The notes beneath the pieces were generated by a model. That model had not been told where the DNA came from. It saw only the letters and a list, made by a program, of their open reading frames with translations, and searched no databases. This document shows positions 11,152-29,404 of a stretch of DNA of 36,504 nt, piece by piece (the first letter of the stretch is position 1; the number at the start of each line of letters is the position of its first letter). A program made the translations under genes and the position numbers. Source of the stretch: Lachnospiraceae bacterium (lineage in GTDB: Bacteria > Bacillota > Clostridia > Lachnospirales > Lachnospiraceae); assembly GCA_017553035.1 (NCBI GenBank), contig JAFZNE010000129.1:1-36504 (forward strand), given 5' to 3'.

Positions 11152-11192
11152 TACGGAAGTCATTTTTGAAAATAGAATTCAGAGGTTAAGAC

Positions 11193-11285: not shown

Positions 11286-14200
11286 GATCCCGCCCCGGCA
11301 GGTACGGGATCCGTTTTGGCTTATATTATTGATGGACGATTGTACGTTAAGCCTTCGGACGATTTTGTTGAGGATGATTTTACGCTGAAATGTATTCTGG
11401 ATTCCCGAGGTGTACAAAAGAAAAACAATAATTCGTATCCCAAAAGGGATACGATCCCTGTGGCTGACCAAAGCTCAGAAGAATATATGATACATGCAAC
11501 TGGAGTTGTTACCGAATTTGGTTTCAGTGAATTTGGATTGTATCACAAGGGAACGTACAAATTCGGTAACAGCACTCCGCTTTACGGCTATGACCAGATA
11601 TTTATCCGTGACGGAAAGTATGTTATTACAAACGGAAGCGCAGAGTTTCCCGTTGTTTCGGTATCCGGAACAAGAAAAGACAGTGGTCAGACGGTTTCTT
11701 CCACATATAACGATGTTCATGTATCTGCCTCGAACGAGAATGTTTCGGGATCGGAAAACTTCGGATCGGTCGATGAACTGATTTCGGGATATGATGCCGA
11801 AAGTCAGGAGGGAGAGGAAGGATCGAACGAAGAATCTCAGTCGATCTCTTTCTGTGACTATGTTTATCCGATTGTTTACAATAACAGCGTGTCGGGTGGG
11901 GCGATAACATTTACCGTCAATGGGACAGATGCTTCGATGGATCCGGAAAAATGGCCCAGAATACTGTATGACGGAGTTGATGAAGGGTCAAATATGGTGG
12001 ATGGAGTATCGGTAAAGAGCACTTATCCCAAACCCGGGAACACGAATGCTCCTGCATTCTATGACAGCGTAGACGCCATTCCCACGGAAACGACCGGAGC
12101 CAATTCGCTCGATCACATGGATAAACTGTCCCTGTATATTGACGGACAGCTTGCCGAGGTGCGTTACTGGGACCAGATAAGTAAGATATGGTACCATGAG
12201 AATACTGCACATGAGTATGTCAACATGATTTATGTGGAGGGCGATCATACATTTAAGCGCGGAGACTGGCGTGATGCGGCTCAGTGCCATTCCGTAAGTG
12301 ATAAATATGTTAACATGAAACAGCTGTGGAAGAGTATATATGATCCTCTATCAATGTATCAGCCCGCAGATGCTGCAGAGTACGGTAATCTTCCGGAAAA
12401 TATCAGGAATTATGCTGTCCTTTCGGGAGAATATATTTCTTCATTGCTTCAGGAAGCAGAAAATGAAGCAATAAAAAATATCATTGCAGGCGTTGAACCA
12501 CATACGCTCGATCCCAATACATATTACAGTAAATCGCTGTTTATTGCGGATTCTTATTTACGATACAAAGACGATAATTCGATCCCGCTTCCGTCTCTGG
12601 ATGATACGATGTGGACGTCAAATGATGATTCGAAAGATCGTTATAATGTCAAGGTTTCGGATTACTGGCTCGGAAAATACGAAGTTACGATGGAACAGTT
12701 CTATCGTTTTGTGGATGACTGCACGGTTGAGCAGGACATTCCCAACGGCTGGAGGACCGGGCAGAGTGTAGATCAGACCGGGGACGCACCGAAAGTGTAT
12801 TATCAGGTAAACGGTCAGAAATATTACCTGAATGAAGTGGCGGCTTATGCGATCGCCGACAAACATGACAAGGCGCGTGATAACGGCTGGGGTCTCGGTT
12901 CTCGTCCTGCGATCGATGTGAACTGGTATGAGGCGGTCGAATTCTGTAATTATCTGTCAAGGAAGGAGGGCTATACCCCCTGCTATACCTTCAGGAATAT
13001 TTATAACGGCACATACGGAGACGGCAAAACTACTGTTGATTTTCTGGCAAATGTCAGAGGCAGTGCCATGCAGAAGATCAAGCAGTCCAAAAAAGATATC
13101 CAGCTGGTCGAGGTTTCATGTGATTTCAGCCAAAACGGATACAGACTGCCTACCGAGAGCGAGTATGAATATGCGGCCAGAGGCGGAAAGCTGACATTTA
13201 CGGATGACGAGTCGCTATATGATGATGACGATAAGCTGGCACTGTATGCAGGCATGAATTCGTTTGATACCGATAATCTGCCGAGTTATGCATGGTGGCG
13301 TAAAGATACCGATAATCCCCAGTATAACGGTGACAGCAGTGCAAGTATTCCCAACAATAATATGGGAGCAAACGGCTATTCGTCGCCGGTCGGAAGCAGG
13401 CTGCCGAACCAGCTCGGATTGCACGATATGTCAGGCAGCGTATGGGAGGCTACGTGGGATTATTATAACCGCGGCTATTATGCGGCACAGCAGCAGCTGG
13501 GAACTACAATAGTTGACGAACGGGGTCCGCAGTATACGGTTGCGCAGATATCGGATATGTCTCCTTCAGTGGTCGTTGATGAAACGATGCGGGATCAGTG
13601 GCAATACACATATAATATTCCCGCGGTTGACGGTACGAACATCTGGGATTCGAGAGAGATCCTGGTCGCGGATAACAGAAGCGGCGCAGGTAAGCTGTCA
13701 CATACCTTAAGAGGCGGCTGCTTTACCAATCCGTACATCCTTGTTGCAACAGTTAACCGTTACGGGCCCGCACAGACATTTGTCCAGAACTGTATCAATT
13801 TTACGGATGCACGTGTGGGATTCAGACTTGCAAGGACCGCAACGGCACAGGACGAAGCTCTGAGGGTCAGCGATGCAGATACTGTCAAGGCTGAAAATGA
13901 GGTCCGCAGAAAAATACATGAAAATTCCACGCAGATAGACGGAAGCACTTATGAATACCAGGATATAGCGGATATCAGGCTCACAAAGGGAAATGCAGCC
14001 AATGAGATCAATGCGGTGGTAGCGGCTACATATTATGACGATAAGAATACTTCTTATCAGAAGGCGGTTACCCGGATCTATAATATGACGGTAACGATAG
14101 CCGACGATGGCAGCGTATCCTCGACCGCGCCTCAGCTTGAAAAAACAGCGCAGCCTCCGCAGACAAAAGAATTCCGTGCGTATCCGCAGATCAAAAAGGT

Positions 14201-15146
14201 CACATGGACTATCAAATATCTGGCCGACAGTGATACCGTAACGGAAGAAAGCGCCAGTGTTGACGAAGACATTGATTATTCGCAGAATTTTACACCGAAG
14301 AAGCTTTCGGAAATAGATGCTGCTTATACCGACGACGATTATAATGATGCCGTTATAGTTACGGAAGGGAATACTATCACCGTAACGTATACAAAGAAAC
14401 AGACACAGCCGGACAATCCCGATCCTGTGAATCCCGATCCGGTCAATCCGAATCCTGTGAATCCTGATCCGGACAATTCAAAACCGATCATTTATTATGT
14501 GCCCGATCCGTCTATAGATGATAATTCGTCGAACAGTCAAAACACGGATGATCCGGGCAAAAATACCGGAGACAGCGGCTCTTCGGAGAATATTCAGGAT
14601 CTGTCACGTACCGAAGTCACCACAAAAAAGACGGGAAGCAAAAAGATCACGACTACACGTGTATATGACAGGCTCGGGACCATACAGTCATATACGGTGG
14701 TCAAAGAGTATACCAAGACCGGAAAGACCGAAACCGAAACGGCAGAGTACAGTAACGGGAAGATCCGGTCATTCACGGTAATTGCCGAAGATAACGGAAA
14801 GATCACCAAGAAAAAGATATATACATCTGATAAGGGGATCAATCTGAGACTGAAGGAACTGTATGTTGACAAGAGCAAGGCGACAGTGGCCACATCTGTT
14901 TCGATCGACGGTAAGAAATATAAAGTTTCAACCATCCTGCCCGAAGCCTTTGATGAGAATATCAAGCTCAAGACGCTGGTCATCGACGGCTATATTTCCA
15001 AGATCAAACAGGATGCATTTGCCGGTCTGCCTGAAGGCACGGTGCTTAAGGCCAAGAACATGACCGACAAACAATTTAAGAAGATCAAAAAGAGTATCCG
15101 TGGATCGGGACTTGCCGATGATCACAAGATTGTAAAGTCTAAATGA
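11193..15146 (+). CDS. Large secreted protein: FGE-sulfatase domain, Pro/Asn repeats, leucine-rich C-terminus
   Basis: The 1317-residue product begins with a signal peptide and is likely exported. Residues about 32-480 match nothing I recognise. An FGE-sulfatase domain spans about 485-880 (YWLGKYEVTMEQFYRF, GYRLPTESEYEYAARGG, LGLHDMSGSVWEA, LRGGCF, VGFRLART). Its last part (VATVNRYGPAQTF) lacks the paired copper-binding cysteines of true FGE. A beta region near 1003-1070 (TWTIKYLADSDTV) resembles MucBP-type surface modules. Then come a Pro/Asn/Asp repeat (1073-1095), a Lys/Thr-rich region and a C-terminal stretch (about 1210-1317; TILPEAFDENIKLKTLVID) like a BspA-type leucine-rich unit. No LPxTG motif was seen, so anchoring is unclear. 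It may be a cell-surface ligand or polymer-binding protein. Confidence 0.82.
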   Translation: MKNKRVFRSFLAMLLVVSFIFGTVPARKAYADPAPAGTGSVLAYIIDGRLYVKPSDDFVEDDFTLKCILDSRGVQKKNNNSYPKRDTIPVADQSSEEYMIHATGVVTEFGFSEFGLYHKGTYKFGNSTPLYGYDQIFIRDGKYVITNGSAEFPVVSVSGTRKDSGQTVSSTYNDVHVSASNENVSGSENFGSVDELISGYDAESQEGEEGSNEESQSISFCDYVYPIVYNNSVSGGAITFTVNGTDASMDPEKWPRILYDGVDEGSNMVDGVSVKSTYPKPGNTNAPAFYDSVDAIPTETTGANSLDHMDKLSLYIDGQLAEVRYWDQISKIWYHENTAHEYVNMIYVEGDHTFKRGDWRDAAQCHSVSDKYVNMKQLWKSIYDPLSMYQPADAAEYGNLPENIRNYAVLSGEYISSLLQEAENEAIKNIIAGVEPHTLDPNTYYSKSLFIADSYLRYKDDNSIPLPSLDDTMWTSNDDSKDRYNVKVSDYWLGKYEVTMEQFYRFVDDCTVEQDIPNGWRTGQSVDQTGDAPKVYYQVNGQKYYLNEVAAYAIADKHDKARDNGWGLGSRPAIDVNWYEAVEFCNYLSRKEGYTPCYTFRNIYNGTYGDGKTTVDFLANVRGSAMQKIKQSKKDIQLVEVSCDFSQNGYRLPTESEYEYAARGGKLTFTDDESLYDDDDKLALYAGMNSFDTDNLPSYAWWRKDTDNPQYNGDSSASIPNNNMGANGYSSPVGSRLPNQLGLHDMSGSVWEATWDYYNRGYYAAQQQLGTTIVDERGPQYTVAQISDMSPSVVVDETMRDQWQYTYNIPAVDGTNIWDSREILVADNRSGAGKLSHTLRGGCFTNPYILVATVNRYGPAQTFVQNCINFTDARVGFRLARTATAQDEALRVSDADTVKAENEVRRKIHENSTQIDGSTYEYQDIADIRLTKGNAANEINAVVAATYYDDKNTSYQKAVTRIYNMTVTIADDGSVSSTAPQLEKTAQPPQTKEFRAYPQIKKVTWTIKYLADSDTVTEESASVDEDIDYSQNFTPKKLSEIDAAYTDDDYNDAVIVTEGNTITVTYTKKQTQPDNPDPVNPDPVNPNPVNPDPDNSKPIIYYVPDPSIDDNSSNSQNTDDPGKNTGDSGSSENIQDLSRTEVTTKKTGSKKITTTRVYDRLGTIQSYTVVKEYTKTGKTETETAEYSNGKIRSFTVIAEDNGKITKKKIYTSDKGINLRLKELYVDKSKATVATSVSIDGKKYKVSTILPEAFDENIKLKTLVIDGYISKIKQDAFAGLPEGTVLKAKNMTDKQFKKIKKSIRGSGLADDHKIVKSK
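14409..14478 (+). repeat. Short Pro-Asn/Asp codon repeat in the secreted protein
   Basis: About 70 bases encode near-repeats of the unit (D/N)PVNP, built from 12-base units such as GATCCTGTGAAT and GATCCGGTCAAT. It probably forms a stiff linker between the beta module and the C-terminal part, and could vary in copy number by slippage. Confidence 0.8.
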
Positions 15147-15184: not shown

Positions 15185-16915
15185 ATGTACGAAAGATCGG
15201 CAGTACTGCTTAAGAAAAAGTTCAGGTCTTATCTGTTGCCGACAATACTAATGACAATGGCTCTGTCGCTCGGTTCCATAGTTGACAGTCTGATCGTTGC
15301 CAATCTGCTGCCTACCGAGGCATTCTCGGCGGTAGGACTTTGCCAGCCGGTCGTACTGTGCTTCAATACCGTATTCAATTTCTTCGGCGTCGGAGGAGCG
15401 ATACTTGCAGCTATCCACAAAGGAAGAAAGGAGGATGACAAGGCGAACACCGTATTTACGAGCGTGATCGTGATCCTGTTATTCTTCTCCGTACTTTTTA
15501 TCATTCTTGGAACACTGCTGCGTGAACCTATCGCCAATCTGTTGTGCAAAGGCAATCTGGAAGTGGCACAGTACATAAAGGATTACTCCATCTGGCTGTT
15601 CATCGGATGTCCGTTTATCATCATGGTTTCCGGACTGATCCCCTTTGTCAGGACAGACGGCAATCCGAAACTCGCATCACGTATCATCATTGTTTCAAAC
15701 GTCGTAAACCTTATTTGCGATTATCTGATAGTAAAATATACCGGAAATATCAGCGGAGCTGCGATCTCCACCGTGATCGGATATGCAGTCGGCGGACTGT
15801 TTTTCATTCCGTATATGCGCTCGAAGAGCAGGGGACTCCACATTTCCAAACCTGCCCGCAATATCATATCATTCGGCGCGAAAATAGCGTCTTCGGGTGT
15901 TTCGAGCGGTCTGAATACCGGTCTGATGTTTTTGAAAAACCTCTGCATCAACCTGATCGTAATGGGAGTTCTCGGAGCAGTCGGAGCTGCCGCTTTCAGC
16001 GTATGTAATCAGACACTTACGCTTGCGGCGCTGTTCGTAGGCGGAACCGTTCAGACGATCCTCCCCATAATCGGAGTGCTGTATGGAGAAGAGGATAAGA
16101 CCGGTATCAAAATGACCATGAAAACCGCTTTTATGTTCGCATTTTCAGCAGCAGTCATCCTGTGCATCATTTTGGAATGCGGAGCCGGACTGATCGTCGG
16201 ATTATTTAATCTGAAAGGCGATGCGGCAGAACTGGGAACAAATGCGATCAGACTGTACAGCCTGATACTGCCTTTTTACGCATTTAACTTCATTATGATC
16301 AATTTCTACCAGACCACGCAGAAGAAGATGCTTGCAGCGTTCTTCTCGATAATGCAGGGACTGGTGCTGATCGTTCCCGCGGTATTCATACTTTCGAAGA
16401 TCGGAGACGGTTCAAAACTCTGGCTCGGATTCCTTATTGCGGAAGCCCTGACATTCGGTCTTATCTTGCTGGTTTCCAAGATCTACGGTGCGAAGCATGA
16501 TCTGCGCGGCCTGCTGCTTGAGAAAAAGTGCGACTGCAACAGGAGCATAGAGATGACTTTGAAGAATGATATAAACGATGCGGAACAGGTATCCGACAAG
16601 ATCGACAAGTTCTGCCGTGAGAACGGAGTTGCCGGTGAACGCGCGCTGAAACTGGCTATAGCGGCCGAGGAGCTGACAACGAATATTATCCGTTACGGAT
16701 ACAACAAGGATAAATTGAGCTATATCGATGTTAACGTGCGTATTGCCGGGGATGAGGTTGTACTGGGAGTGCGTGACGACGGCGTATTCTTCAACCCGAC
16801 GGAATATCATACCGAAGAAATGAGCTTTTCGGGTATCGAAACCGTGAAAAAGATCGCCAAGGAAGTCAAGTATTCACGTGTTCTCGGCTTTAATACTGTC
16901 ACTGTAAAAGTGTGA
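15185..16915 (+). CDS. MATE-family transporter fused to an RsbW-like ATPase (anti-sigma kinase) domain
   Basis: Residues 1-440 form a MATE/MatE-type multidrug or metabolite transporter with about 12 hydrophobic segments, starting LLPTILMTMALSLGSIVDSLIVANLL and containing VRTDGNPKLA. After a short Cys/Lys-rich linker (KKCDCNR), residues 452-576 are an HATPase_c_2 domain of the RsbW/SpoIIAB kind. The N-box is IAAEELTTNIIRYGY (Glu495, Glu496, Asn500) and the G1-like box is VRDDGVFFNP (Asp531, Asp532, Gly533). The G2 region, FSGIETVKKIA, is shorter than in canonical kinases. It follows an AAAGGAGGT site. The frame is continuous, so this is a real fusion rather than two adjacent genes. It could be a transporter gated by a STAS protein, or a membrane-tethered kinase; both are inference. 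Confidence 0.88.
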   Translation: MYERSAVLLKKKFRSYLLPTILMTMALSLGSIVDSLIVANLLPTEAFSAVGLCQPVVLCFNTVFNFFGVGGAILAAIHKGRKEDDKANTVFTSVIVILLFFSVLFIILGTLLREPIANLLCKGNLEVAQYIKDYSIWLFIGCPFIIMVSGLIPFVRTDGNPKLASRIIIVSNVVNLICDYLIVKYTGNISGAAISTVIGYAVGGLFFIPYMRSKSRGLHISKPARNIISFGAKIASSGVSSGLNTGLMFLKNLCINLIVMGVLGAVGAAAFSVCNQTLTLAALFVGGTVQTILPIIGVLYGEEDKTGIKMTMKTAFMFAFSAAVILCIILECGAGLIVGLFNLKGDAAELGTNAIRLYSLILPFYAFNFIMINFYQTTQKKMLAAFFSIMQGLVLIVPAVFILSKIGDGSKLWLGFLIAEALTFGLILLVSKIYGAKHDLRGLLLEKKCDCNRSIEMTLKNDINDAEQVSDKIDKFCRENGVAGERALKLAIAAEELTTNIIRYGYNKDKLSYIDVNVRIAGDEVVLGVRDDGVFFNPTEYHTEEMSFSGIETVKKIAKEVKYSRVLGFNTVTVKV

Positions 16916-18888: not shown

Positions 18889-19752
18889 ATGAAAAAGATA
18901 AATATAGGTTTTCTGGGTTACGGAACAAGAGCACTTGATGCTCTCATGGAAGACGAACGTTTTGAAGTTAAGGCCTTTTTTGCGCCGCTGAGCCGCCTGT
19001 GCGAAGACGTGTATGATGCAAAAAAGAAGTATCCCGGTCCGGAATTCGGGATCGTAAAGGATAATGATGATGTCCGAAAAGCGTTTGAACGGTATAAGGG
19101 GAAGGTTGAATGCTTCCTTATGAATGCCTGCCCTATAATACTGAATCAGCAGGTTCTTGATGTCATGCCGGTCTATAATATCCATCCCGGAAATCTTACG
19201 GACAACAGGGGACATCAGCCTCATCTGTGGACGGTGCTGCTTGCCGAAAAGGAAAGTGAGATCGTATTGCATGAGGTGAATCCGGGGATCGATGAAGGTA
19301 AGATCATCGCGAAAAAAGTAATGAGCATCGATGATTCTATGGATTCCCTGCAGGTACTCAATCTCCTTGAGGATGAGATCCCTTATCTGCTTGACGGGCT
19401 GTATGATCATATCGTTAACGGGATACCTCCCGTGGAAGCCGTATTTGGTGGTGAATACAGAAGAGTTATGGTTTATCAGGATTATGAGTTCTCACCCGAA
19501 AACATGGATTCACCGGGATTCCTTGAGGACGTCCTGCGCAAGATCCGTGCGAGGGCGATGCATCATGGAGCGTATTTCATCTATCGGGATGAAAGGATAT
19601 ATGTTGACAGACTGCTCGATGACGAGAGACTTACTGAAACCGGCGGTTTAAACGGTGAGGTTGAAATAGAATTTCACGGGACCGTTGTAATGCTGCGTAA
19701 AAATGACAGGCTGCTTGTCTTCAGGCTGAACAAACGGGAACAGATACGATGA
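18889..19752 (+). CDS. Formyltransferase-domain protein (Fmt/PurN fold), substrate unknown
   Basis: The protein (287 aa) begins with a Rossmann-like strand KINIGFLGYGTRALDAL and carries the formyltransferase catalytic set Asn97, His99 (NIHPGNLTDNRG) and Asp135 (VNPGIDEGKII). The 36-residue His-Asp spacing equals that of Fmt (His110/Asp146) and PurN (His108/Asp144), so activity is plausible. It is neither a standard Fmt, lacking a clear C-terminal OB-type tRNA-binding domain, nor PurN. Relatives transfer formyl from 10-formyl-THF to amino sugars or other amines. ATG 18889 is chosen over the upstream in-frame TTG 18874 because of the GAGGT site. It ends 8 bases before the substrate-binding protein gene and may head the signalling operon. 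Confidence 0.8.
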   Translation: MKKINIGFLGYGTRALDALMEDERFEVKAFFAPLSRLCEDVYDAKKKYPGPEFGIVKDNDDVRKAFERYKGKVECFLMNACPIILNQQVLDVMPVYNIHPGNLTDNRGHQPHLWTVLLAEKESEIVLHEVNPGIDEGKIIAKKVMSIDDSMDSLQVLNLLEDEIPYLLDGLYDHIVNGIPPVEAVFGGEYRRVMVYQDYEFSPENMDSPGFLEDVLRKIRARAMHHGAYFIYRDERIYVDRLLDDERLTETGGLNGEVEIEFHGTVVMLRKNDRLLVFRLNKREQIR

Positions 19753-19760
19753 GGTTATAA

Positions 19761-20972
19761 GTGGTGAAAAGAGTTTTTTCGATAGTGATCATACTTCTGT
19801 TTATTCTGCCGGCGTTTGTAATATTCGCTCCGGAGAATAAAGAAGATCCGGCTCTTAAGGCCAGGATCTCGGATTTTTTCGATACCGGGACTGTCCGAAA
19901 TGAGCCACATACAAGGAGTGACGGTAAGCCGTTTCATATCTGCTATGTGGATATAGATCCGTATCCCGCTTCGGGTGAAATGCTGTATTATCTGCTTGAA
20001 GAACTGAATGACCTGGGATGGATGAATATCCCGTCATTTGCGGAACTGCCGTTTGATCCACAGGATACCGACGCGGGAAGGCTGATAGATTATCTGGCCG
20101 AGAGAGGGACCGGAGAGTATATCTCATTTTCGAAGGATCAGAATTACTATATTGCCCTTGACGACAGGGAGGATGTCAAGGCAGGGATAACGGACGGGAT
20201 CGCGGCCGGAGAGGTCGATCTGATCCTGTGTCTGGGCACTTCACCGGGAGAACTCGTGATAAATGAGATGGGAATAAAAGATGTGCCTGTCGTAGTTTAT
20301 TTTTCGGTCGATCCCGTGGGAGCCGGACTTTCCGAAACACAGGAATATTCGGGCAAAGATAATGTATGGTGCCATACAAGCTCAGATGTGTATATCAACC
20401 AGCTGAGGTTTTATTTTGACACCATGCCTTTTTCATGTCTTGGAATGGCATATTACAGCGAATCGGTCGCCGCTGCGGAGATCTACAGGAATGCTGCTTC
20501 AAGCCTCGGAGCATCGGTAGTAGAAGAAAAGATCGAAACGATCAGGCCCGGTGAGACTAAAGAGGAGTATTATTCCAGACTGAAAGCGGTATATGAGAAA
20601 CTGGTGAATGAAGACGGTATTGACGCATTTTTGCTGAATACGGACATGATAAAAGATTCATATGCCGTAGAGCCGCTGCTTTCGGTCTTCTATGATTCGC
20701 AGATACCGGTGTTTGTCCAAAACGGACAATTCTTCGTTGCGGAAGGCGCGTTTATGCTCATGTCAGCAAGCGATGCAAAAGCTCAGGCACCTTTCGCCGT
20801 AAATGCTGTTACATCGATCCTGAGCGGAAAGAAGCCGGGTGAGATCTATCAAAAATATATTCCGTCGCCTTATGTGTCGGTCAACCTTGATGCAGCCGCA
20901 AAAATCGGTTATGATATCCCTGAGGATATCTTGCGTTCGGCGGAAAGAATATACGGGGGCGGGATGAAGTAA
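19761..20972 (+). CDS. Periplasmic-binding-like ABC substrate-binding protein (ABC_sub_bind type), orphan
   Basis: The 403-residue protein starts with a single hydrophobic segment (about 2-22, FSIVIILLFILPAFVIFAP) without a lipobox cysteine, so it is either exported or held as a membrane anchor. The rest has the two-lobe type I periplasmic-binding fold; ICYVDIDPYPASGEMLYYLLEEL and LILCLGTSPGELVINEM suggest the ABC_sub_bind family. The start is GTG at 19761 (GTG 19764 is possible) after a GAGGT site. No ABC permease or ATPase gene is nearby. Its TAA overlaps the ATG of the sensor-bearing MFS gene by one base, so the two are translationally coupled and probably act together. The ligand is unknown. 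Confidence 0.75.
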   Translation: MVKRVFSIVIILLFILPAFVIFAPENKEDPALKARISDFFDTGTVRNEPHTRSDGKPFHICYVDIDPYPASGEMLYYLLEELNDLGWMNIPSFAELPFDPQDTDAGRLIDYLAERGTGEYISFSKDQNYYIALDDREDVKAGITDGIAAGEVDLILCLGTSPGELVINEMGIKDVPVVVYFSVDPVGAGLSETQEYSGKDNVWCHTSSDVYINQLRFYFDTMPFSCLGMAYYSESVAAAEIYRNAASSLGASVVEEKIETIRPGETKEEYYSRLKAVYEKLVNEDGIDAFLLNTDMIKDSYAVEPLLSVFYDSQIPVFVQNGQFFVAEGAFMLMSASDAKAQAPFAVNAVTSILSGKKPGEIYQKYIPSPYVSVNLDAAAKIGYDIPEDILRSAERIYGGGMK

Positions 20973-23275
20973 TGCAGAATTCAGTTAAAAACGCGGATCT
21001 GCGCAGCAATAACAAAAACCTGCTCAGTCTGCTGATATACGGATGCGCGATGCTCGCGGGGATGATCTTTGTTTTCTGGATATCGGAAATGGCGTTTTGG
21101 AATTCATCGATCGATCTGAACGAACAGTACCTTTCGATCAGGTCGGATGAAATTGCCGAGAATATCCGTACTTCCTTAAAATACGGCAAAGACCTCTCGA
21201 ATTTCTACGGCATCGAAAATGAGCTGTCCAAAATAACCGATATCAACAAGTCCGGTATAGGTGTATGCGTAACGGACAACAGCGGAAATGTTGTGTCGGG
21301 GATATTTCCGGATGATGAAATTACCGCACGAAAGATGCTTGGAGCGGTATATACAGGTCTGGAAAAGGATCCGGGGGAGGGCAGCATTTCGCTGGGTAAA
21401 TATGACGGTTTTCTTTATGAAATGTCCGGTCCGGCAGGAGAACATGCCGGTGCGCTGGTCGTGATCTATGCAAGGAACATGATATCCAGATATGAACTGA
21501 ATAAGGACAAGATCATTCCGTTTACGATCATTTTCCTGACAGCCATGATCGCCCTGACATTTTTTGTTTTCAGAAAAAGGGACGGAAAGGTACAACAGTC
21601 CCGGAAACTGATCAGAAGCATTCCGATCGTGATCACTATGATCGCGATGTTTGCGTTTGTACTGTATCTGTATATCGGATTCCGCTCGGATTATACGGAG
21701 CTGATCGAAGATAATGCGGTAAAGACACGTGCATTCGTTCAGGGTACGGTGGACGATCTGCTTGCGAAAGGACTTCCCAAGGAGGAACTGAGCGGATTTG
21801 AGATCTATTTTGAAACGATCGCCGACAGGACTGAGGGTATTTCTTCAATTGAGTTAACTGAAGGAACAAAGATAAATGTAGTCACTTCACGCGACTATCT
21901 GAAGGACAAGCTGGTATTCCTTGCAGCTACCTTCGGAGCAATATTTATCGTCTGCCTGATGATAATGTATGAGCTGACCGGGTTTATCGCTTCGCTGCAG
22001 GAAGGCGGGGATGAAGATACCGCAGACGCTGCTGACAATGACCACAAACCTGAAAACGGCGCATCTGAAGTCCGACAGGGTGTGAAACTCAAGAGCGTGA
22101 TCAGAGTGCTGTCGTTTATCGTATACACGGCTATATACGTAAGCATGCCGTATGCCGCTGTTATAATGCGGCAGGGAGGAATGACCGTATTCGGGCTGTC
22201 GCCGTCGCTGTCGGCATCGCTTCCGCTGACGGTCGAGCTTATCGTCATTTTGATCACCACGCTGCTCATACAACGCCTGTACGCGGATGAAAAACCGCTC
22301 GTACTGTTCTTCATGGCAGTGATGATACTTATAGTCGGGAACGCTGCGTGTCTTCGCGTGGATTCGCCATATATGCTGATCGTTCTGCGCGCGTTCTGCG
22401 GAATGGGATTCGCTTTCCTCAAATATTTCTTCAATTCGCTTGTTACGTCGGGCAGCAGGGATGTCGGCGAGATCGAGCAGAATTTCGCAAATATGAATGC
22501 GGGACTGCTCGGAGGCATTACGATAGGATCTTCCCTGGGTTCGATACTTGCAGGTACATTCGGATACCAGAGCAATTATCTGTTTACCGCAGCTGTTCTT
22601 GCGGCTGCCATATTGCCGGGATGGCTGCTGCTCCGCCGGAGATATTCAAAAGGACCGGATCGGACAGGCAGGATCGATACAGCATCAAAAAGATCGGTGT
22701 CCGTTCTGTCGGTGCTGAAAAACGGCAAACTCCGCAGAGCGATAATATTGACCGATATTCCGCTGAATGTCGGCCTGATGTATGTAGTAGCATTCCTGCC
22801 GGTATACATGGGCGTGATCGGAAAGCCCGCTATCGCGACCGGATATGCATATCTGGTGAACGGATTGTGCGGAATATATATCGGAGTCTTTATTCTCGGA
22901 TTGCTGAAGAAGATACCGAGAGAGAAGGCCGTTATCCTGTCGATAATCATCGGGGCGGCGGGAATACTGTGTCTTCTGCTTGGAACGAGTGTTGCCGTGG
23001 TGATCGCATCCGCAGCTATAATGGGTATATTTGACGGATACGGAACTCCTTCGATGACCGGATATTTTACCGGGATCGCACAGGAGGCCGCGGATGACAG
23101 CAAAGGGATAATAACTGTTTACGGAAGCATAGGAAGCGCGGTACAGATAATATGCCCTGTTCTGTACGGGATCCTGGCACAGCCTGACGGCAATCTTATC
23201 CCGATAACGATATTCGGGCTAGTATTTCTGATGTTTGGAATCATATTCGGTGCGGAGGTGCGTCGTGGAAAATAG
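20972..23275 (+). CDS. Major facilitator-like protein with N-terminal extracytoplasmic sensor regions
   Basis: The 767-residue protein has an N-terminal sensor part and a C-terminal MFS-like part. The first helix (about 17-42) is followed by an outside domain (45-180) of Cache/PAS-like character (GIGVCVTDNSGNVVSGI), then helices near 183-203 and 215-235, a shorter outside loop (236-305) and a helix near 311-332. An acidic cytoplasmic linker (337-365) leads to about 12 helices (370-767) with MFS features such as LRAFCGMGFAFLKYFF and GSSLGSILAGTFGY. Such sensory extensions are known on signalling proteins more than on MFS transporters. It overlaps the phosphatase gene by 11 bases. It may be a transporter-like receptor for the adjacent phosphatases. 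Confidence 0.75.
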   Translation: MQNSVKNADLRSNNKNLLSLLIYGCAMLAGMIFVFWISEMAFWNSSIDLNEQYLSIRSDEIAENIRTSLKYGKDLSNFYGIENELSKITDINKSGIGVCVTDNSGNVVSGIFPDDEITARKMLGAVYTGLEKDPGEGSISLGKYDGFLYEMSGPAGEHAGALVVIYARNMISRYELNKDKIIPFTIIFLTAMIALTFFVFRKRDGKVQQSRKLIRSIPIVITMIAMFAFVLYLYIGFRSDYTELIEDNAVKTRAFVQGTVDDLLAKGLPKEELSGFEIYFETIADRTEGISSIELTEGTKINVVTSRDYLKDKLVFLAATFGAIFIVCLMIMYELTGFIASLQEGGDEDTADAADNDHKPENGASEVRQGVKLKSVIRVLSFIVYTAIYVSMPYAAVIMRQGGMTVFGLSPSLSASLPLTVELIVILITTLLIQRLYADEKPLVLFFMAVMILIVGNAACLRVDSPYMLIVLRAFCGMGFAFLKYFFNSLVTSGSRDVGEIEQNFANMNAGLLGGITIGSSLGSILAGTFGYQSNYLFTAAVLAAAILPGWLLLRRRYSKGPDRTGRIDTASKRSVSVLSVLKNGKLRRAIILTDIPLNVGLMYVVAFLPVYMGVIGKPAIATGYAYLVNGLCGIYIGVFILGLLKKIPREKAVILSIIIGAAGILCLLLGTSVAVVIASAAIMGIFDGYGTPSMTGYFTGIAQEAADDSKGIITVYGSIGSAVQIICPVLYGILAQPDGNLIPITIFGLVFLMFGIIFGAEVRRGK
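23253..23258 (+). promoter_or_regulatory. Ribosome binding site CGGAGG deciding a GTG start
   Basis: CGGAGG, 6 bases before GTG 23265, lies inside the end of the MFS gene and selects that codon over the in-frame TTG 23235, which has no ribosome site. Confidence 0.75.
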
Positions 23276-24938
23276 AAGAAGTCTGACGAGAAGATTCATA
23301 ATAGTATTTCTGGCCGTGGGATTCGGCTTATGTCTGCTGAGCGGCTTCATGGGACTGAAAGGTTTTGTGGACAGCATCCGCCAGCAGTACCATGATGTCG
23401 CCGACCAGGTTGCGGAGGCGGCAGCGGCGGAGATCCTGAACGAGATATCTACCGACGAACTGCGCAGATATGCCGATACGGCCGTAAGCGGATCGGAAGA
23501 AGAAATACTCAGTATTCGCGAGGATGAGAAATACAGGAGAATTAGGGAAAACCTTGGAAGACTCAGAAGCAGCTTCAGACTGACAGACATCTATGTCGTC
23601 ACATATACCGCGGAAGAGCTCAGATCTTATAAAGAAGGAGACAGCTCCTGGAAGCCGCTGGTATATATATTCGATACATTTGTCGAAACGGACAAGATCT
23701 ATGAACTTGGCCAGAGAAGTTCGATGAACCATAAGAATATCGAACTGTTCGCCGAAGTTACCGAGACGCTGCGTTCACAGGATAAACATATCATTTCATC
23801 AGGTGATTTCGGATACAACATGTCAACGCTCAAACCGGTCCTGGCCTCCGACGGAAGGATCGCGGCGATCATAGGAGTCGAAGTACCCATGATCAGGATA
23901 CAGGCTGTTGCGAGAGATTATCTGATCAGGACTATTGCCATAACAATGCTCCTGATGCTGATAATCATCATATTGTTCATCTATTATCTGTCAAAACGTG
24001 TTATTAAGCCGGTGGATGTAATTTCCGAAGAAGTTTGCCGTTTCGGCAGGAACAATGATATAACGGAAGAATCGGCTGCGAAACTGGGTTCGATCCAGAC
24101 CGGAAACGGATTACAGTCGCTTGCCGAATATATCGGCAAGATGGAAAAGGATATTATCGACAATGTCGAAAATATCAAAAAGATCACTGCGGAAAAAGAG
24201 AGGATCAGTGCGGAACTGAATGTCGCGACGCAGATCCAGGCAGATATGCTGCCTTGTATTTTCCCGGCATTCCCGGAAAGAAAGGAATTTGATGTTTACG
24301 CATCAATGACCCCCGCCAAGGAGGTCGGAGGTGATTTCTACGATTTCTTCCTGCTCGATGACGATCATCTGGCACTTGTCATGGCGGATGTATCGGGTAA
24401 AGGAGTTCCGGCTGCGCTGTTCATGGTTATTTCGAAGACACTCATAAAAGACCAGGCACAGATGTGTAACAGCCCGAAAACGATACTTGAAGAGGTCAAC
24501 AATAAACTTTACGACAGCAACGCGGAAGGAATGTTTGTTACCGTATGGCTTGGGATCTATGAGATCAGCACAGGCAGGATAGTCGCCGCCAACGCGGGAC
24601 ACGAGTATCCTGCGATCCGCAAGGCGGACGGGCAGTTCGAGCTGCTGAAAGACAAGCATGGCATGATGGTAGGTGCTATGCAGGGCATCAAATACAAAGA
24701 ATATGAAATGGAGATAGAAAAGGGAGGATGTCTGTTCCTGTACACCGACGGTGTTCCCGAGGCCACCGATTCCGGTAACGAGCTGTTCGGTACCGACAGG
24801 ATGATCAATGCGCTGAACATCGAACCTATGGCTGACCCCGTTAAACTGCTGAAGAATGTGAAAGAGTCGGTAGACGAATTCGTCGGAGAGGCTCCGCAGT
24901 TCGATGATCTGACGATGCTCGCGATCGTAAGAAACTAG
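23265..24938 (+). CDS. Membrane sensor with HAMP and SpoIIE/RsbU-type PP2C phosphatase
   Basis: The 557-residue protein has helix 1 (about 10-30), an extracytoplasmic region (31-220), helix 2 (about 221-243), a HAMP-like segment (244-290) and a SpoIIE/PP2C phosphatase domain (317-557). Metal-binding motifs are present: EVGGDFYDFF, MADVSGKGVPAA, YTDGVPEA and QFDDLTML. The family removes phosphate from STAS antagonists, freeing them to bind the RsbW-type kinase. The likely substrate is the STAS protein at 26969, with the one at 3570 as a second candidate. Translation starts at GTG with an 11-base overlap of the MFS gene, indicating coupling. The phosphatase domain is closely related at DNA level to that of the next gene. 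Complete, with no missing metal ligand noticed. Confidence 0.9.
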   Translation: MENRRSLTRRFIIVFLAVGFGLCLLSGFMGLKGFVDSIRQQYHDVADQVAEAAAAEILNEISTDELRRYADTAVSGSEEEILSIREDEKYRRIRENLGRLRSSFRLTDIYVVTYTAEELRSYKEGDSSWKPLVYIFDTFVETDKIYELGQRSSMNHKNIELFAEVTETLRSQDKHIISSGDFGYNMSTLKPVLASDGRIAAIIGVEVPMIRIQAVARDYLIRTIAITMLLMLIIIILFIYYLSKRVIKPVDVISEEVCRFGRNNDITEESAAKLGSIQTGNGLQSLAEYIGKMEKDIIDNVENIKKITAEKERISAELNVATQIQADMLPCIFPAFPERKEFDVYASMTPAKEVGGDFYDFFLLDDDHLALVMADVSGKGVPAALFMVISKTLIKDQAQMCNSPKTILEEVNNKLYDSNAEGMFVTVWLGIYEISTGRIVAANAGHEYPAIRKADGQFELLKDKHGMMVGAMQGIKYKEYEMEIEKGGCLFLYTDGVPEATDSGNELFGTDRMINALNIEPMADPVKLLKNVKESVDEFVGEAPQFDDLTMLAIVRN

Positions 24939-24959
24939 AGTGATGATTAAGAGGTTTTT

Positions 24960-26498
24960 ATGGAATTTATCACCAGAAGTCAGAAAAGAAAGATAATAAT
25001 CACGACATTTATCTACCTTTTCCTTATCCTTATCGCGGCACAGCTGCTGTATATCAGAAAAGTCGCAAATATGACCCCGATATATGTTGTTAATGTTTCG
25101 GTCGACATTTTCGGGATGATAATGGGATATGTGCTTTTTATCTGTTGTCTGATCGATGTCCAGAAAACCGGTGCGAATTATTTTTATTTCTTCCTGCTGC
25201 TGAACGCTACATATTTCGGACTCTTTACGGATGCATGTGCATGGCTTATGGATGGCATTCCGAAATACAGATGGCTGAATGTAGCCGATAATACGCTTTA
25301 TTACATGTGCGCCCCGATCGCGGCCTACTTCTTCTGGCGGTTTGTGAAGTCGCGCATTAAGTCGGCAAGACCGCTGATGAGGATATTTGAGATCATCATA
25401 CGTGTGGGACTGGCTGTTTCGCTTGCTCTCATTGTCGCAAATCTGTTTCTGCATTTTTATTTCAATGTCGATGAGGCGGGAATTTATCACAGGACCGCAT
25501 TTTACAGTATTACGCTGATCTGTCCGATGTTTACCATGCTTGCGACGCTCGGGCTTGTCGTACTCGAGAGAAAACAGCTCAGCAGATATCAGCAGGTTGC
25601 GGTACTTGTCTATGTTGCGGCGCCGCTTGTGAGTTCGATAATGACGATGAATGTCTATGGGCTTTCGATCTCATTTGCCATGAATATGATGGTCATGCTG
25701 CTGATGTACTGTGTCCTGAATGTAACACAGGGCAGGGAAAAGGCGATCGCGGACAGGGATCTTACGGTTGCGGCGGCAATTCAGGAAAACATGCTCCCGA
25801 ACAGATTTCCCGCATTTCCGGACAGAAAAGAGTTTGATCTGTATGCAACGATGACGCCGGCTAAAGAGGTCGGAGGGGATTTCTACGATTTCTTTATGGT
25901 GGATGATGATCATCTGGCACTCGTTATGGCGGATGTATCGGGAAAAGGCGTTCCGGCTGCGCTGTTTATGATGGTATCGAAAATGCTCATCAAAAACCGT
26001 GTGCAGACCGGGGAGAGTCCCGGTAAGGCCCTGGTCAACGTGAATAACCAGCTTATTGAAGGAAACAGGGCAGAGATGTTTGTCACAGTATGGCTCGCGG
26101 TACTTGAAATTTCGACAGGCAAGGGAGTTGCGGCCAATGCCGGTCACGAACATCCGGTACTGAAGCGGGCGGACGGACAGTATGAACTCATAAAATACCG
26201 TCATTCTCCTGCGGTCGCAACGATAGAAGAAATACCGTTCAGGGAGCATGAATTTGAACTCCATGCGGGGGATACGCTGTTTGTCTATACGGACGGCGTT
26301 CCCGAGGCGTCTGATGCGCAGGAGGAGCTGTTCGGTACCGACAGGATGCTTGAAGCACTTAACAGTGAACCTGACGCGGGCCCGGAGAAAGTCCTGGAAA
26401 ATGTCATGAACGGTATTACGGAATTTGTTGCCGGTGCAAAACAGTTCGATGATATAACAATGCTGTGTTTCAGATATAACGGAATACCTGTTGCCTGA
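24960..26498 (+). CDS. Seven-helix membrane protein with SpoIIE/RsbU-type PP2C phosphatase
   Basis: The N-terminal half (about 1-250) is a bundle of roughly 7 helices (FIYLFLILIAAQLL, VVNVSVDIFGMIMGYVLF and later ones) resembling 7TM sensor modules, with no large extracytoplasmic domain. The C-terminal half (about 265-512) is a PP2C phosphatase with EVGGDFYDFF, MADVSGKGVPAA, YTDGVPEA and QFDDITML. It is a second phosphatase for the same kind of STAS target but with a different input. An AAGAGGT site precedes the ATG. Its TGA overlaps an ATG (26498) in the frame of the kinase gene. Having two sensors on the same output domain suggests integration of two signals. Confidence 0.9.
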   Translation: MEFITRSQKRKIIITTFIYLFLILIAAQLLYIRKVANMTPIYVVNVSVDIFGMIMGYVLFICCLIDVQKTGANYFYFFLLLNATYFGLFTDACAWLMDGIPKYRWLNVADNTLYYMCAPIAAYFFWRFVKSRIKSARPLMRIFEIIIRVGLAVSLALIVANLFLHFYFNVDEAGIYHRTAFYSITLICPMFTMLATLGLVVLERKQLSRYQQVAVLVYVAAPLVSSIMTMNVYGLSISFAMNMMVMLLMYCVLNVTQGREKAIADRDLTVAAAIQENMLPNRFPAFPDRKEFDLYATMTPAKEVGGDFYDFFMVDDDHLALVMADVSGKGVPAALFMMVSKMLIKNRVQTGESPGKALVNVNNQLIEGNRAEMFVTVWLAVLEISTGKGVAANAGHEHPVLKRADGQYELIKYRHSPAVATIEEIPFREHEFELHAGDTLFVYTDGVPEASDAQEELFGTDRMLEALNSEPDAGPEKVLENVMNGITEFVAGAKQFDDITMLCFRYNGIPVA

Positions 26499-26530
26499 TG
26501 CTCATTTTCATTCGCGTTACGGAGATTATG

Positions 26531-26950
26531 ATGAAAGAATTGACAATAGAAGCAAAAACGGATAATCTTGATAGTGTGATCGATTTCATAAATGCACAGC
26601 TCGAGGAGCTGGAATGCAGCATGAAGATCCGGATGCAGATAGATATCGCGGTTGAAGAACTGTTCGTAAATATCGCCAGCTATGCTTATCAGGATGATGA
26701 CCGGCCGGGAACGGCGACTGTAATTTTTGATACGGAAAAGGATGAGAATGTTACGGCAATGATCACTTTTATTGACTGCGGCATTCCTTTTAACCCGCTG
26801 GAGCGGGAAGATCCGGATACTTCGCTTTCGGCGGATAAAAGACCGATCGGAGGACTCGGGATATTTATTTCAAAGAAGAACATGGATAGTATGCGGTATG
26901 AGTACAAAGAAGGCAAAAACATACTTACAATCTATAAGCAACTTTTTTAA
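26531..26950 (+). CDS. RsbW/SpoIIAB-like serine kinase (HATPase_c_2), free-standing
   Basis: This 139-residue single-domain GHKL ATPase carries an N-box (IAVEELFVNIASYAYQ: Glu42, Glu43, Asn47), G1 (FIDCGIPFNP: Asp82, Gly84) and G2 (IGGLGIFISKKNMD). The size fits RsbW-like kinases, which phosphorylate a STAS antagonist and hold a target when the antagonist is unavailable. The ATG at 26531 has a GGAG site 6 bases upstream. ATG 26498, overlapping the previous stop, and ATG 26528 are alternatives. The STAS gene follows 18 bases later, the usual kinase-antagonist pairing in the opposite order to rsbVW. No sigma factor gene is present, so the kinase's final target is unknown. Confidence 0.9.
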   Translation: MKELTIEAKTDNLDSVIDFINAQLEELECSMKIRMQIDIAVEELFVNIASYAYQDDDRPGTATVIFDTEKDENVTAMITFIDCGIPFNPLEREDPDTSLSADKRPIGGLGIFISKKNMDSMRYEYKEGKNILTIYKQLF

Positions 26951-26968
26951 GCAAAAGGAGGGTAAAAA

Positions 26969-27268
26969 ATGTTAAACATTACTAAGGATCTTAACGGCAC
27001 CGAATTGTCTTTCGCTCTGGAAGGCAGGCTTGATACTGTTACGGCACCTCAGCTTGAGAGCGAGGTAAAATCGTCGGTTGACGGAGTGGATAAAATGGTA
27101 GTTGACTGCGCAAAACTCGAGTATATTTCCAGCGCGGGCCTGCGTGTACTGCTTCTCGCACAGAAGATCATGAATGAAAAGGGTTCTCTGGTTGTCCGCA
27201 ATGTTTCGGAAGAAGTTATGGAAATATTCGAAGTTACCGGCTTTGTGGATATTTTGACTATCGAATGA
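26969..27268 (+). CDS. STAS-domain anti-sigma factor antagonist-like protein
   Basis: The 99-residue STAS domain has the signature LEYISSAGLRVLLLAQK. The predicted phosphorylated residue is Ser55 by comparison with RsbV, with Ser54 adjacent. A strong AAAAGGAGGG ribosome site suggests high synthesis, as expected for a stoichiometric switch partner. It is a clear paralogue of the protein at 3570 (both share GRLD-x-TVAPQL-like and YI-x-SAGLRV segments). Its neighbours are the RsbW-like kinase upstream and a divergent protein 16 bases downstream. It is the obvious substrate for the kinase and for the two phosphatases. Confidence 0.92.
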   Translation: MLNITKDLNGTELSFALEGRLDTVTAPQLESEVKSSVDGVDKMVVDCAKLEYISSAGLRVLLLAQKIMNEKGSLVVRNVSEEVMEIFEVTGFVDILTIE

Positions 27269-27283
27269 TTTCGGAGGTTATTT

Positions 27284-27916
27284 ATGCAGACAGATAAGAT
27301 CAAAGTTACTTCCAGCGGCTCGGGCTCAACACAGGCGATCGAAGAGGCAGCGAAATTTGCGGATTATGTCGGACTTGACCGCAAATCATCACTTCGTCTG
27401 AGACTTCTGGCAGAAGAAATGCTGGGCATGGTTACCGCCATTACCGAGGATTTCTCGGCGCAGTTCTGGATCGAAAGCGTTGAAGACGGAAACTGCAAGC
27501 TCCACCTGACAGCCCGGACGATCATGGATTATGCGAAGAAAAGAGAACTCATAGATGCTTCAAGCGATAAAAAGAATGCCGCTGCAAAGGGTATCATGGG
27601 CAAGATCAGGCAGATCATAGAGAACAGCCTTTACAGTATCGATGAGGCGGGAAGCCTTTCGGCAGAATACGGCGGAACACCGCTTATGTACGGGGAGATG
27701 GGAATGGGCGATCCCGGTGCATCTCTCGAGGCATCAACATATTACTGGTCTCTTCAGAAATACAGAAGCCGTGTAGCCGAGTACGGCACGGAAAATGATG
27801 CCGGAAAAGAGGCCTGGGATGAGCTTGAAAAATCAATCGTTGCCAATATTGCCGATGACGTCAGCGTTGCGGTAAAAGGTGACATAGTTGAATTAGTCAT
27901 AACCAAGAAATTTTAA
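27284..27916 (+). CDS. Unrecognised protein, possibly a degenerate RsbW-like ATPase (210 aa)
   Basis: I do not recognise this protein by motif. The segment LRLRLLAEEMLGMV (about 37-50) resembles the N-box helix of GHKL ATPases but lacks the Mg-binding Asn. No G1 Asp-x-Gly box is visible. GIMGKIRQII near 103-112 might be a remnant of the lid/G2 region. A Gly/Met-rich stretch (about 128-145, YGGTPLMYGEMGMG) and a helical part precede a closing strand (DIVELVITKKF). It is cytoplasmic. Its place directly after the STAS gene, with a good GGAGG site and before a terminator-like hairpin, marks it as the last member of the partner-switch operon. It could be a STAS-binding decoy or output protein. Confidence 0.6.
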   Translation: MQTDKIKVTSSGSGSTQAIEEAAKFADYVGLDRKSSLRLRLLAEEMLGMVTAITEDFSAQFWIESVEDGNCKLHLTARTIMDYAKKRELIDASSDKKNAAAKGIMGKIRQIIENSLYSIDEAGSLSAEYGGTPLMYGEMGMGDPGASLEASTYYWSLQKYRSRVAEYGTENDAGKEAWDELEKSIVANIADDVSVAVKGDIVELVITKKF

Positions 27917-27925
27917 GGAAGCCTG

Positions 27926-27948
27926 GTAGGAGGGAAATCCCCTCCTAC
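27926..27948 (+). terminator. Terminator-like hairpin after the partner-switch operon
   Basis: A perfect 9-bp stem (GTAGGAGGG at 27926-27934, CCCTCCTAC at 27940-27948) with a 5-base loop follows 10 bases after the stop. The following run (TCGGTTTATC) is only weakly T-rich, so termination may be partial. The stem also contains AGGAGGG, which could mimic a ribosome site. Confidence 0.6.
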
Positions 27949-28009
27949 TCGGTTTATCAGCAGTTGAATCCCATTTCGGAATAATACTTACAGACATGGA
28001 GATTAAAGC

Positions 28010-29404
28010 ATGGATTTTACGGAAACGATCAAGTCATTTCATCAGAGAGCGTGCATTCTCGCAGTCGAGAGCACGGGAGAAGGCGAACGTGATAAGATCA
28101 CGGTTGTTGCGGCGAATGAGGAATATCTGATCTCTGTCAACAAACAAAATGAGCCCTTTGTTCCGGGACGTCCGTACACATACTATATCGAGCCAGACAG
28201 GAATTTCGAAATAATGTGCGGCAGATGCTCAAGCAAGCAGAAAGCCCAGCATCAGTACGTCAATGCGGAACTGTATAAAGCCTGGCTGGACTTGTATATG
28301 ATACCGCTTGAATCAGACGATGATAATGTGAAGTATTGTCTGTTCTCATACGATATGACTCCGCAGCCCGAATCGGCAAAGCTGCTTGATATTTCGGAGA
28401 GTACTGCGATGCAGGTGCTTAAAACCTGTATCAGGCTTCGTAAAACGGATGATTTTCAGGCTGCGATGGATTCGATCATCAAGGATATCAGGAAGATGTG
28501 CGATTCAAGTGCCTGCAGCATCCTTCTGACCGATTTTGATGAGCGCAAATGCAAGATACTCTGCGTTGACCATGATGATTCATTTTCTATGGATCGCGAT
28601 GACATCGTATTCATGGATGAATTTATCTATGTGGCGGAGACCTGGCGTGATCTGATGGCTGGAAGCAACTGCTACATAATTGCCGATGAAAATGATATGA
28701 AGATCGTCGAGGAGAAGGATCCCGAATGGGCCAAAACCCTGAGGATTTCCGGAATTTACAATGTTGTTCTGTATCCCTTAAGGATCAAAAATAAGATCCT
28801 CGGCTACATCTGGGCTACCAATTTCAACGCCGACAAGATACAGAATATCAAGGAAGTCATGGAACTTAACGCATTCCTGCTGGCGGCCGAGATCGCGAAC
28901 CATCAGATGTTTGAAAAGATGAATTTCATGAGCCGGTACGATATTTTGACCGGAGTAATGAACCGTAACGCGATGAATACTCGTGTTGAGGAGAGCAAGT
29001 CGGGCAAGAATCCGCTCACAGAAGACTTCGGTGTAGTATTCGTCGATCTGAACGGGCTGAAACGTATCAATGACTGTAAAGGCCATACCGCAGGCGATGA
29101 AATGATCAAATCGGTTGCATCAAAGCTCAGGGATATATTTGACGGATACGAGATCTATCGTGCGGGCGGTGATGAATTCATGATCCTTGCGGAAGGCTGC
29201 CCGAAGAACAAGTTTGATTACATGGTAGGAAAACTGAAAGAGCAGGATCTTGATACCGAAGCGGCGAGATTTGCGGTAGGAAGCTATTATGACGACGGGG
29301 ATCATGATATCAAGGCCGCATTAAGAGCTGCTGATACCGATATGTACAATGATAAATCCAGCTTCTATCATAAGCATCCCGAGATGAGCAGAAGAAGCGG
29401 GTAA
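28010..29404 (+). CDS. Cytoplasmic GGDEF protein (probable diguanylate cyclase) with GAF-like sensor
   Basis: The C-terminal domain (about 305-464) has a full GGDEF signature, YRAGGDEFMIL, with the metal-binding FVDLNGLKRIND motif, so cyclic-di-GMP synthesis is likely. A GAF-like domain (about 150-300; SSACSILLTDFDERKCKILCVDHDDS, VVLYPLRIKNKILGYIW) and an N-terminal PAS-like region (1-130; VVAANEEYLI) may sense a small molecule. No membrane segments are seen. No RxxD inhibitory site was noticed five residues before the GGDEF. The start follows a GGAG site (27998-28001). It lies just after the partner-switch operon, separated by a hairpin, and ends 13 bases before the AmmeMemoRadiSam gene. Linkage to the STAS switch is possible but unproven. 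Confidence 0.87.
   Translation: MDFTETIKSFHQRACILAVESTGEGERDKITVVAANEEYLISVNKQNEPFVPGRPYTYYIEPDRNFEIMCGRCSSKQKAQHQYVNAELYKAWLDLYMIPLESDDDNVKYCLFSYDMTPQPESAKLLDISESTAMQVLKTCIRLRKTDDFQAAMDSIIKDIRKMCDSSACSILLTDFDERKCKILCVDHDDSFSMDRDDIVFMDEFIYVAETWRDLMAGSNCYIIADENDMKIVEEKDPEWAKTLRISGIYNVVLYPLRIKNKILGYIWATNFNADKIQNIKEVMELNAFLLAAEIANHQMFEKMNFMSRYDILTGVMNRNAMNTRVEESKSGKNPLTEDFGVVFVDLNGLKRINDCKGHTAGDEMIKSVASKLRDIFDGYEIYRAGGDEFMILAEGCPKNKFDYMVGKLKEQDLDTEAARFAVGSYYDDGDHDIKAALRAADTDMYNDKSSFYHKHPEMSRRSG

Follow-up and report, generated by a model that had tools for sequence, protein, structure and literature searches.

The window analysed here is a stretch of 36,504 nucleotides (nt) that constitutes contig JAFZNE010000129.1 (C106) in the draft assembly of a Lachnospiraceae bacterium (GCA_017553035.1; G000; 2.52 Mb, 84% complete). 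Its + strand carries, at positions 18889-27916, an operon in the order formyltransferase, substrate-binding protein (SBP), sensor-bearing major facilitator superfamily (MFS) protein, SpoIIE1, SpoIIE2, RsbW, STAS and X210, the last being a conserved unnamed protein of 210 amino acids (aa). The core of this operon is a partner switch and thus of a known kind, with no sigma factor gene beside it. What appears new is the combination of such a switch with an enzyme, a transporter and a binding protein, together with the X210 family, neither of which was found described in the literature searched. Partner switches have mostly been studied as controls of sigma factors, and here one occurs together with transporters, binding proteins and small-molecule enzymes of various kinds. 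The explanation tentatively preferred, at somewhat less than even confidence, is a small-molecule-responsive partner switch whose output runs via X210 and is either independent of sigma factors or distant. If X210 is a partner controlled by STAS, it would offer a direct handle on sigma-free outputs, and if the enzymes make the ligand, the operon would be part of a system by which major gut bacteria signal chemically.

Gene content and layout of the operon

An earlier note, made from the sequence alone, had described a sensor-fed partner switch without an adjacent sigma factor, a description borne out by the gene content and the kept motifs. All genes that it named are present on the + strand, and seven of the eight have Pfam support, the exception being the last open reading frame (ORF), X210. 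The two PP2C phosphatases do have different predicted membrane parts, as had been proposed. SpoIIE1 (23265-24938; PF07228, about 2.6e-46) shows two predicted transmembrane (TM) segments (hydrophobic stretches at residues 6-35 and 217-248) with an outside domain, and SpoIIE2 (24960-26498; PF07228, 2.5e-47) shows about six predicted N-terminal TM segments by hydropathy; the two PF07228 matches supply the phosphatase component of an Rsb-type module. In the RsbW-type serine kinase (26531-26950; PF13581 HATPase_c_2, 1.3e-18), residues E54, N58, D93, G95, G118, G119 and G121 are invariant among 21 aligned sequences (alignment A3), and we take them to be the N, G1 and G2 boxes of a GHKL serine kinase. 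The STAS protein (26969-27268; PF01740, 9.5e-15; TIGR00377, 68.6 bits against a cut-off of 53.45) is of the anti-anti-sigma type and carries the ISSAGLR serine motif as YISSAGLRV, with a similar motif in relatives; its conserved serine is presumably the switch serine of a STAS substrate. The host assembly contains two SpoIIE and two STAS matches (PF01740, E <= 0.01), and all of them lie inside the window, so their clustering is more than chance.

Upstream of these genes, the formyltransferase-like enzyme (287 aa; 18889-19752; PF00551 Formyl_trans_N, 2.5e-7) gives a weak partial match, far below cut-off, to the model of dTDP-4-amino-4,6-dideoxyglucose formyltransferase. The orphan SBP (19761-20972; PF04392 ABC_sub_bind, 4.9e-12) has a predicted N-terminal membrane anchor, its one hydrophobic segment spanning residues 1-27, and the MFS protein (20972-23275; PF07690 MFS_1, 9.7e-25, residues 380-724) has an N-terminal membrane sensor region. 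The proposal that several starts overlap the preceding stop holds at SBP/MFS (1 nt) and MFS/SpoIIE1 (11 nt) and fails at the other five of the seven junctions after start corrections. SpoIIE1 probably begins at the GTG at 23265, behind a GGAGG Shine-Dalgarno sequence, which gives the 11-nt overlap; the corresponding junction of a related locus (L155) likewise overlaps by 11 nt. RsbW probably starts at the ATG at 26531, behind GGAG, where several homologues start (the first ATG of the ORF is at 26498), so that the SpoIIE2/RsbW junction becomes a 32-nt gap.

The X210 family

X210 (27284-27916) matches no Pfam family, nor did searches of NCBIfam or of PDB sequences return anything useful, in agreement with the earlier description of the operon's last member as unrecognised. 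Its relatives comprise 463 stretches among 84,980 genomes, and thus hundreds of candidate loci. The locus counts use the best 80 of these 463; many of the 80 are cut by contig ends, and near-duplicates are included (76 full-length proteins, 68 below 90% identity; all 80 counted). These loci belong mostly to Lachnospiraceae and Selenomonas, mainly rumen or gut bacteria, and include cultured Butyrivibrio and Selenomonas; in a tree of 69 X210 proteins, the nine from Selenomonadaceae group together. By genome, X210 occurs in 13 of 200 sampled family genomes (G000-G199; weakest match 6.8e-4) and in 4 of 398 phylum genomes, the host being included each time. The immediate neighbour of X210 is a STAS protein of fewer than 130 aa in 56 of the 80 loci. 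Same-strand runs with X210 (gaps below 200 nt) contain STAS in 64/80, RsbW in 34/80, SpoIIE in 29/80 and either RsbW or SpoIIE in 41/80.

The assignment of X210 as a plain HATPase was considered and rejected, given the empty Pfam, NCBIfam and PDB searches and a weak comparison with a profile built from RsbW alone. Across the 69 family members no Pfam match recurs; the scattered weak matches are to unrelated families (best E 0.0016), and HATPase_c_2 is not among the 25 most-matched families at E <= 0.1. Comparison by hhalign at default settings with a profile of seven MATE-fused RsbW domains gave a probability of 86.4%, a score of 43.0 and a P value of 4.7e-6 over 39 columns, while none of 60 column shuffles scored above 17.9; profiles of STAS, SpoIIE and SBP scored 14.7 to 15.6. 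A pooled profile of 28 gave 64%, with a near-full-length alignment drawn under the permissive setting -mact 0.1. With positions mapped through the profile alignment, all 69 members retain the Glu-Glu pair of the N-box helix, and the asparagine position is occupied by Met in 67 and Leu in 2. From profile comparisons of mixed outcome together with the Met/Leu replacement, X210 is predicted to be a degenerate, probably non-catalytic relative of the kinases. In these comparisons it shows similarity to HATPase_c_2/RsbW kinases in the N-box helix (MATE-fused domains) and a C-terminal helix-strand (RsbW), and it shares their adjacency to STAS, but it differs in the lack of any Pfam HATPase match in 69 members, in the Met/Leu N-box and in being about 60 residues longer.

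Several unusual arrangements of the family were also observed. The X210 domain is fused to MscS-type channels (L044 2527-3939 and L047 9860-11257) and to an alpha/beta hydrolase (L046 4064-5614), and it occurs as a tandem duplicate (L041 11214-12461). In Selenomonas ruminantium, a condensation-domain protein with a weak cNMP-binding match (L088 7701-9605) is followed by STAS-X210.

Sensors, transporters and enzymes in related loci

The earlier note had suggested searching for conserved synteny of the upstream genes, and their linkage is indeed conserved. In another genome (G103; L155) the order is STAS-formyltransferase-SBP-MFS-SpoIIE-RsbW; compared with the proteins of the window, identity is 59% for STAS, 57% for the formyltransferase, 61% for SBP, 48% for MFS (residues 235-759 only), 54% for SpoIIE and 51% for RsbW. 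The whole set including the formyltransferase was found only in the host and at this locus. The MFS protein itself is matched at 1e-20 in 6/397 family genomes, host included, and a SpoIIE gene lies near it in all six; in the other five, the MFS gene adjoins a related SBP gene with SpoIIE nearby. In one of them, G076, SpoIIE is divergent (L156), and a second copy (L146) sits on a 4.3-kb contig without SpoIIE.

For a broader survey, profile A4 was built from an alignment of eight such MFS proteins. It matches at least 28 of the 397 family genomes, a lower bound, as the search scored at most two candidates per genome. Twenty new loci (L191-L210) were derived from these 28, leaving out the five profile-building genomes and G135 (L036/L075), G158 (L045) and G328; omitting G135 and G158 gives the count no help, because both have SpoIIE near the MFS gene. 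Among the 20 loci, SpoIIE lies within two genes of the MFS gene in 14, RsbW within three genes in 7 and STAS within five genes in 1. SBP and MFS form a single protein in L124 and L191, and the order in L196 is SpoIIE, MFS, formyltransferase, Bmp-type binding protein, RsbW.

The enzymes that accompany these sensors and transporters, often of types that act on amines or amino acids, change from locus to locus. A Pfam scan of chosen neighbours placed a formyltransferase at the window, L155, L196 and L040 loci and LPG_synthase_C (PF09924) in L194, L195, L198, L199, L200, L201, L204, L210 and L040. A lysine-aminomutase-like radical SAM protein together with a D-Ala-D-Ala-ligase-like ATP-grasp protein occurs in L159, L124 and L191, and a D-Ala-D-Ala-ligase-like protein in L193. 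Alanine racemase is found in L157 and L158 (four genes away from MFS in L158), GH3 in L156, GNAT in L045, L075 and L197, and a nonribosomal peptide synthetase (NRPS), cut by the contig end, in L074. Locus L040 reads STAS, X210, formyltransferase, LPG_synthase_C, MATE/RsbW, SpoIIE, RsbW, with the MATE/RsbW fusion taking the place of MFS. A Pfam-supported enzyme lies within three genes of the MFS gene in 12 of the 20 new loci; the scanned genes were picked by hand, and the enzyme counts are therefore those of a selected sample and no unbiased enrichment.

Genome-wide searches distinguished the module copies from other members of two of these families. In four genomes picked for having the module formyltransferase (G000, G103, G245 and G012), PF00551 has exactly three matches each; the third is the module copy every time, and the other two have the size of housekeeping genes (open frames of 215-223 and 312-331 aa). 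For PF09924 the set consisted of ten genomes, nine picked because their module contains such a gene and the host, which lacks one. Eight of the ten yielded matches, 12 in total, and eight of these 12 are module copies. Genomes with a match carry one or two, one always being the module's. This search missed a module copy in G180 that the Pfam neighbour scan shows.

Other features of the MFS loci were recorded in passing. An unnamed protein of 373-469 aa (mutual identity 33-46%) directly precedes the sensor-MFS gene in L202, L203, L205, L206 and L209. In L204, L207 and L208, a long sensor-MFS gene without nearby SpoIIE stands beside genes for a C39-peptidase ABC exporter, identified by Pfam in L204 and by eye in L207 and L208. 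At L199, a PF09924 locus, the MFS gene is followed, in place of SpoIIE, by a protein that has HAMP and matches a class III cyclase below threshold (9701-11401), which may represent an output swap. A protein labelled Ntox11 by Pfam (L157 8534-10111) comes after the RsbW gene of an MFS-SpoIIE locus.

Possible mechanisms, known systems and other features of the window

The preferred reading of a ligand-responsive switch proceeds from the observed gene content and order, the kept kinase and STAS motifs, the recurring SBP-MFS-SpoIIE linkage, the enzyme neighbours and the STAS-X210 linkage; from these we infer ligand binding, transport direction, binding partners and output. Outside the cell, the SBP and the sensor regions of the MFS protein and phosphatases would bind a ligand, which would set the activity of SpoIIE1 (and SpoIIE2). 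The phosphatases would dephosphorylate STAS, and the RsbW-type kinase would rephosphorylate it. Free STAS would then change partners, between RsbW and X210, the latter being the likeliest local partner. X210, kinase-like in character and lacking the ATP-site asparagine, might carry the output itself or present STAS to an output other than a local sigma factor. The formyltransferase would probably make or alter the ligand, or a related metabolite moved by the MFS protein.

Several results weigh against such a reading. X210 compared with the profile of 21 RsbW proteins alone reached a probability of 5.6% over 35 columns (score 23.7; 60 shuffles up to 18.9). X210 lies within five genes of the MFS gene in 1 of the 20 new loci, and the MFS and X210 parts are therefore separable. 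No SpoIIE is present in 6 of the 20, and both X210 and the MFS protein are absent from G134, the genome sampled from the same genus. For eight of the 20 there is no enzyme with Pfam support: of the six scanned, L192 gave a weak unrelated match only and L202, L203, L205, L206 and L209 no relevant Pfam family, the other two being L207 and L208. Neighbours taken by eye for acetyltransferases matched no family in L107 and L114 and fell below cut-off in L106. That the enzymes act on a signal is conjecture.

With respect to output, the ordinary alternative is an anti-sigma switch, in which RsbW would bind a sigma factor encoded elsewhere, such as the FliA/WhiG-type factor on C113 or an extracytoplasmic function (ECF) factor, and STAS would free it. 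This is considered rather unlikely. The canonical motifs of kinase and STAS would suit it, and the host has RpoD, a FliA/WhiG-type gene and two ECF-like genes. However, as the earlier note had stated, there is no sigma factor beside the partner switch: no sigma-70 region 2 match occurs on the window contig, the host matches lying on C94, C62, C113 and C116, and none of the four sigma genes in the 84% complete assembly is of SigB/F/G type. In three other genomes a related ECF gene is directly beside X210 (L072/L035, at 10695-11171 of L072; L119 9227-9730) or three genes upstream of it (L094 3704-4243). Among the 200 genomes, X210 is found in 13, this ECF family in 6 and both in 3 (G012, G041 and G079), a co-occurrence by genome that is higher than adjacency. 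Yet the family was not found in the host assembly, and the host's C62 ECF is 26-28% identical to it and adjoins an ORF that by eye resembles its own anti-sigma factor. The family was also rejected as a general X210 partner, considering that a search of 397 genomes with profile A6 gave 12 matches, with X210 or STAS in the 1.5-kb flanks of L212 only; L212 is the same locus as L072, and for L216 the match reaches just 13 bits. A distant sigma factor may thus be the target, with little to support this positively. Apart from this, short peptide genes lie near the ECF gene in L094 and L212, and other loci of the ECF family are, by eye, near such peptides or C39-type exporters. A further alternative is cyclic di-GMP (c-di-GMP) output, in which STAS or X210 would control the adjacent GAF-GGDEF protein (28010-29404, + strand; PF00990, 9.7e-21) in the manner of HsbA-HsbD or SiaC-SiaD. 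Its gene, which has an intact GGDEF motif, lies 93 nt downstream of X210, and binding of a STAS protein to a diguanylate cyclase has a precedent (PMC5085249). Nevertheless, this output is quite improbable. A hairpin with a poor U tract (27919-27955) lies between the two genes; the sequence from 27912 to 28009 has a folding energy of -31.6 kcal/mol (z -3.6), and the hairpin is absent from the terminator-scan listing of the window. Around X210 in the 80 loci, GGDEF genes make up 5/440 genes up to three positions away and 7/648 further out (immediate neighbours 1/157; positions 2-3, 4/283; 4-6, 6/363; beyond, 1/285), which is background, and the idea of a conserved GGDEF output was dropped as a general rule, although the adjacency in the window stands. 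Because the host assembly holds 33 GGDEF matches, this adjacency is plausibly due to chance.

With respect to input, the enzymes (formyl-, aminoacyl- and acetyltransferases and ligases) might instead modify a lipid, a cell-wall amine or a toxic compound moved by the MFS or MATE protein, with the switch sensing damage. MFS and MATE proteins are commonly efflux pumps, PF09924 is named for phosphatidylglycerol lysyltransferase, and the C39-peptidase exporter next to MFS in L204 (and, by eye, in L207 and L208) would fit such envelope or drug modification. The chemistry, however, shifts by locus (NRPS, racemase, aminomutase-like enzyme, GH3) more than a single target suggests, and having a dedicated binding protein suggests that the ligand is soluble; this alternative is likewise held to be unlikely. 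Nutrient sensing, in which the SBP-MFS pair would sense a nutrient that the neighbouring enzymes merely use, appears improbable: a weak match of the SBP to the model for tryptophan-binding TrpX (24.6 of 390 bits) speaks for it, but the operon has no ABC permease and the recurring enzymes do not form one catabolic pathway. Because the chemistries vary among loci, enzyme variety weakly favours a ligand over an envelope target or nutrient use. A bolder extension of the ligand-responsive switch is a hitherto undescribed, self-contained signalling family of Lachnospiraceae, in which a swappable amine or amino-acid enzyme would make a secreted signal, the sensor-bearing MFS or MATE protein would move it, the SBP and membrane PP2C proteins would read it and STAS/X210, in place of a sigma factor, would provide the output. 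A candidate enzyme, a transporter and a binding protein do co-occur in the loci and might play the parts of synthase, exporter and receptor in a quorum-sensing circuit, and the swapped enzyme would give each lineage a private signal; as a whole this extension is speculative and doubtful.

Among known systems, Bacillus Rsb/SpoIIA shares the PP2C phosphatase, GHKL serine kinase and STAS substrate, whereas the operon described here lacks a local sigma factor and adds two membrane phosphatases, an SBP, an MFS protein, an enzyme and X210. RsbQ-RsbP likewise couples, by gene order, a protein of enzyme type to a sensor that is a PP2C phosphatase, and this sensor module serves different outputs across bacteria (PMC3183031); the possible output swap at L199 may parallel these varied outputs. 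In contrast to RsbQ-RsbP, the operon has no alpha/beta hydrolase, no PAS domain was detected in the window phosphatases, a transporter and an SBP are added, and the enzyme type varies. In HsbA-HsbD and SiaABCD, a diguanylate cyclase is the target of a protein of partner-switch type (PMC5085249 and PMC8457831), whereas the GGDEF neighbour of the window operon is not conserved. Scores against SiaA and SiaD (54.4 of 700 and 65.1 of 290 bits) fall far below cut-off.

Although the inventory of the operon in the earlier note was correct, it had overlooked the GAF-GGDEF gene and two further partner-switch genes of the window. One encodes a second, intact STAS protein (100 aa; 3570-3872, + strand; PF01740, 3.3e-12) upstream of DJ-1/PfpI genes, and the other a MATE transporter fused to an RsbW-type domain (15185-16915, + strand; PF01554, 1.8e-29; PF13581, 7e-11). 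Similar MATE-RsbW fusions adjoin STAS-X210, near SpoIIE, in L040, L106 and L107. The host has four further HATPase_c_2 matches over cut-off, namely the window's MATE fusion, a second MATE fusion on C78 (L050 4708-6492), and matches on C87 and C62. That on C87 is an RsbW-like kinase gene (L049) beside a GlcNAc 2-epimerase gene; reversed, C87 overlaps the window's left end at positions 1-382 (382 bp, 99.2%), and this kinase gene is therefore probably located just upstream of the window. Finally, positions 7765-15146 encode three proteins in succession, one with four Lcl_C stretches and then two with FGE-sulfatase domains; the second of these two has 1317 aa and, by eye, a signal-like N-terminus.

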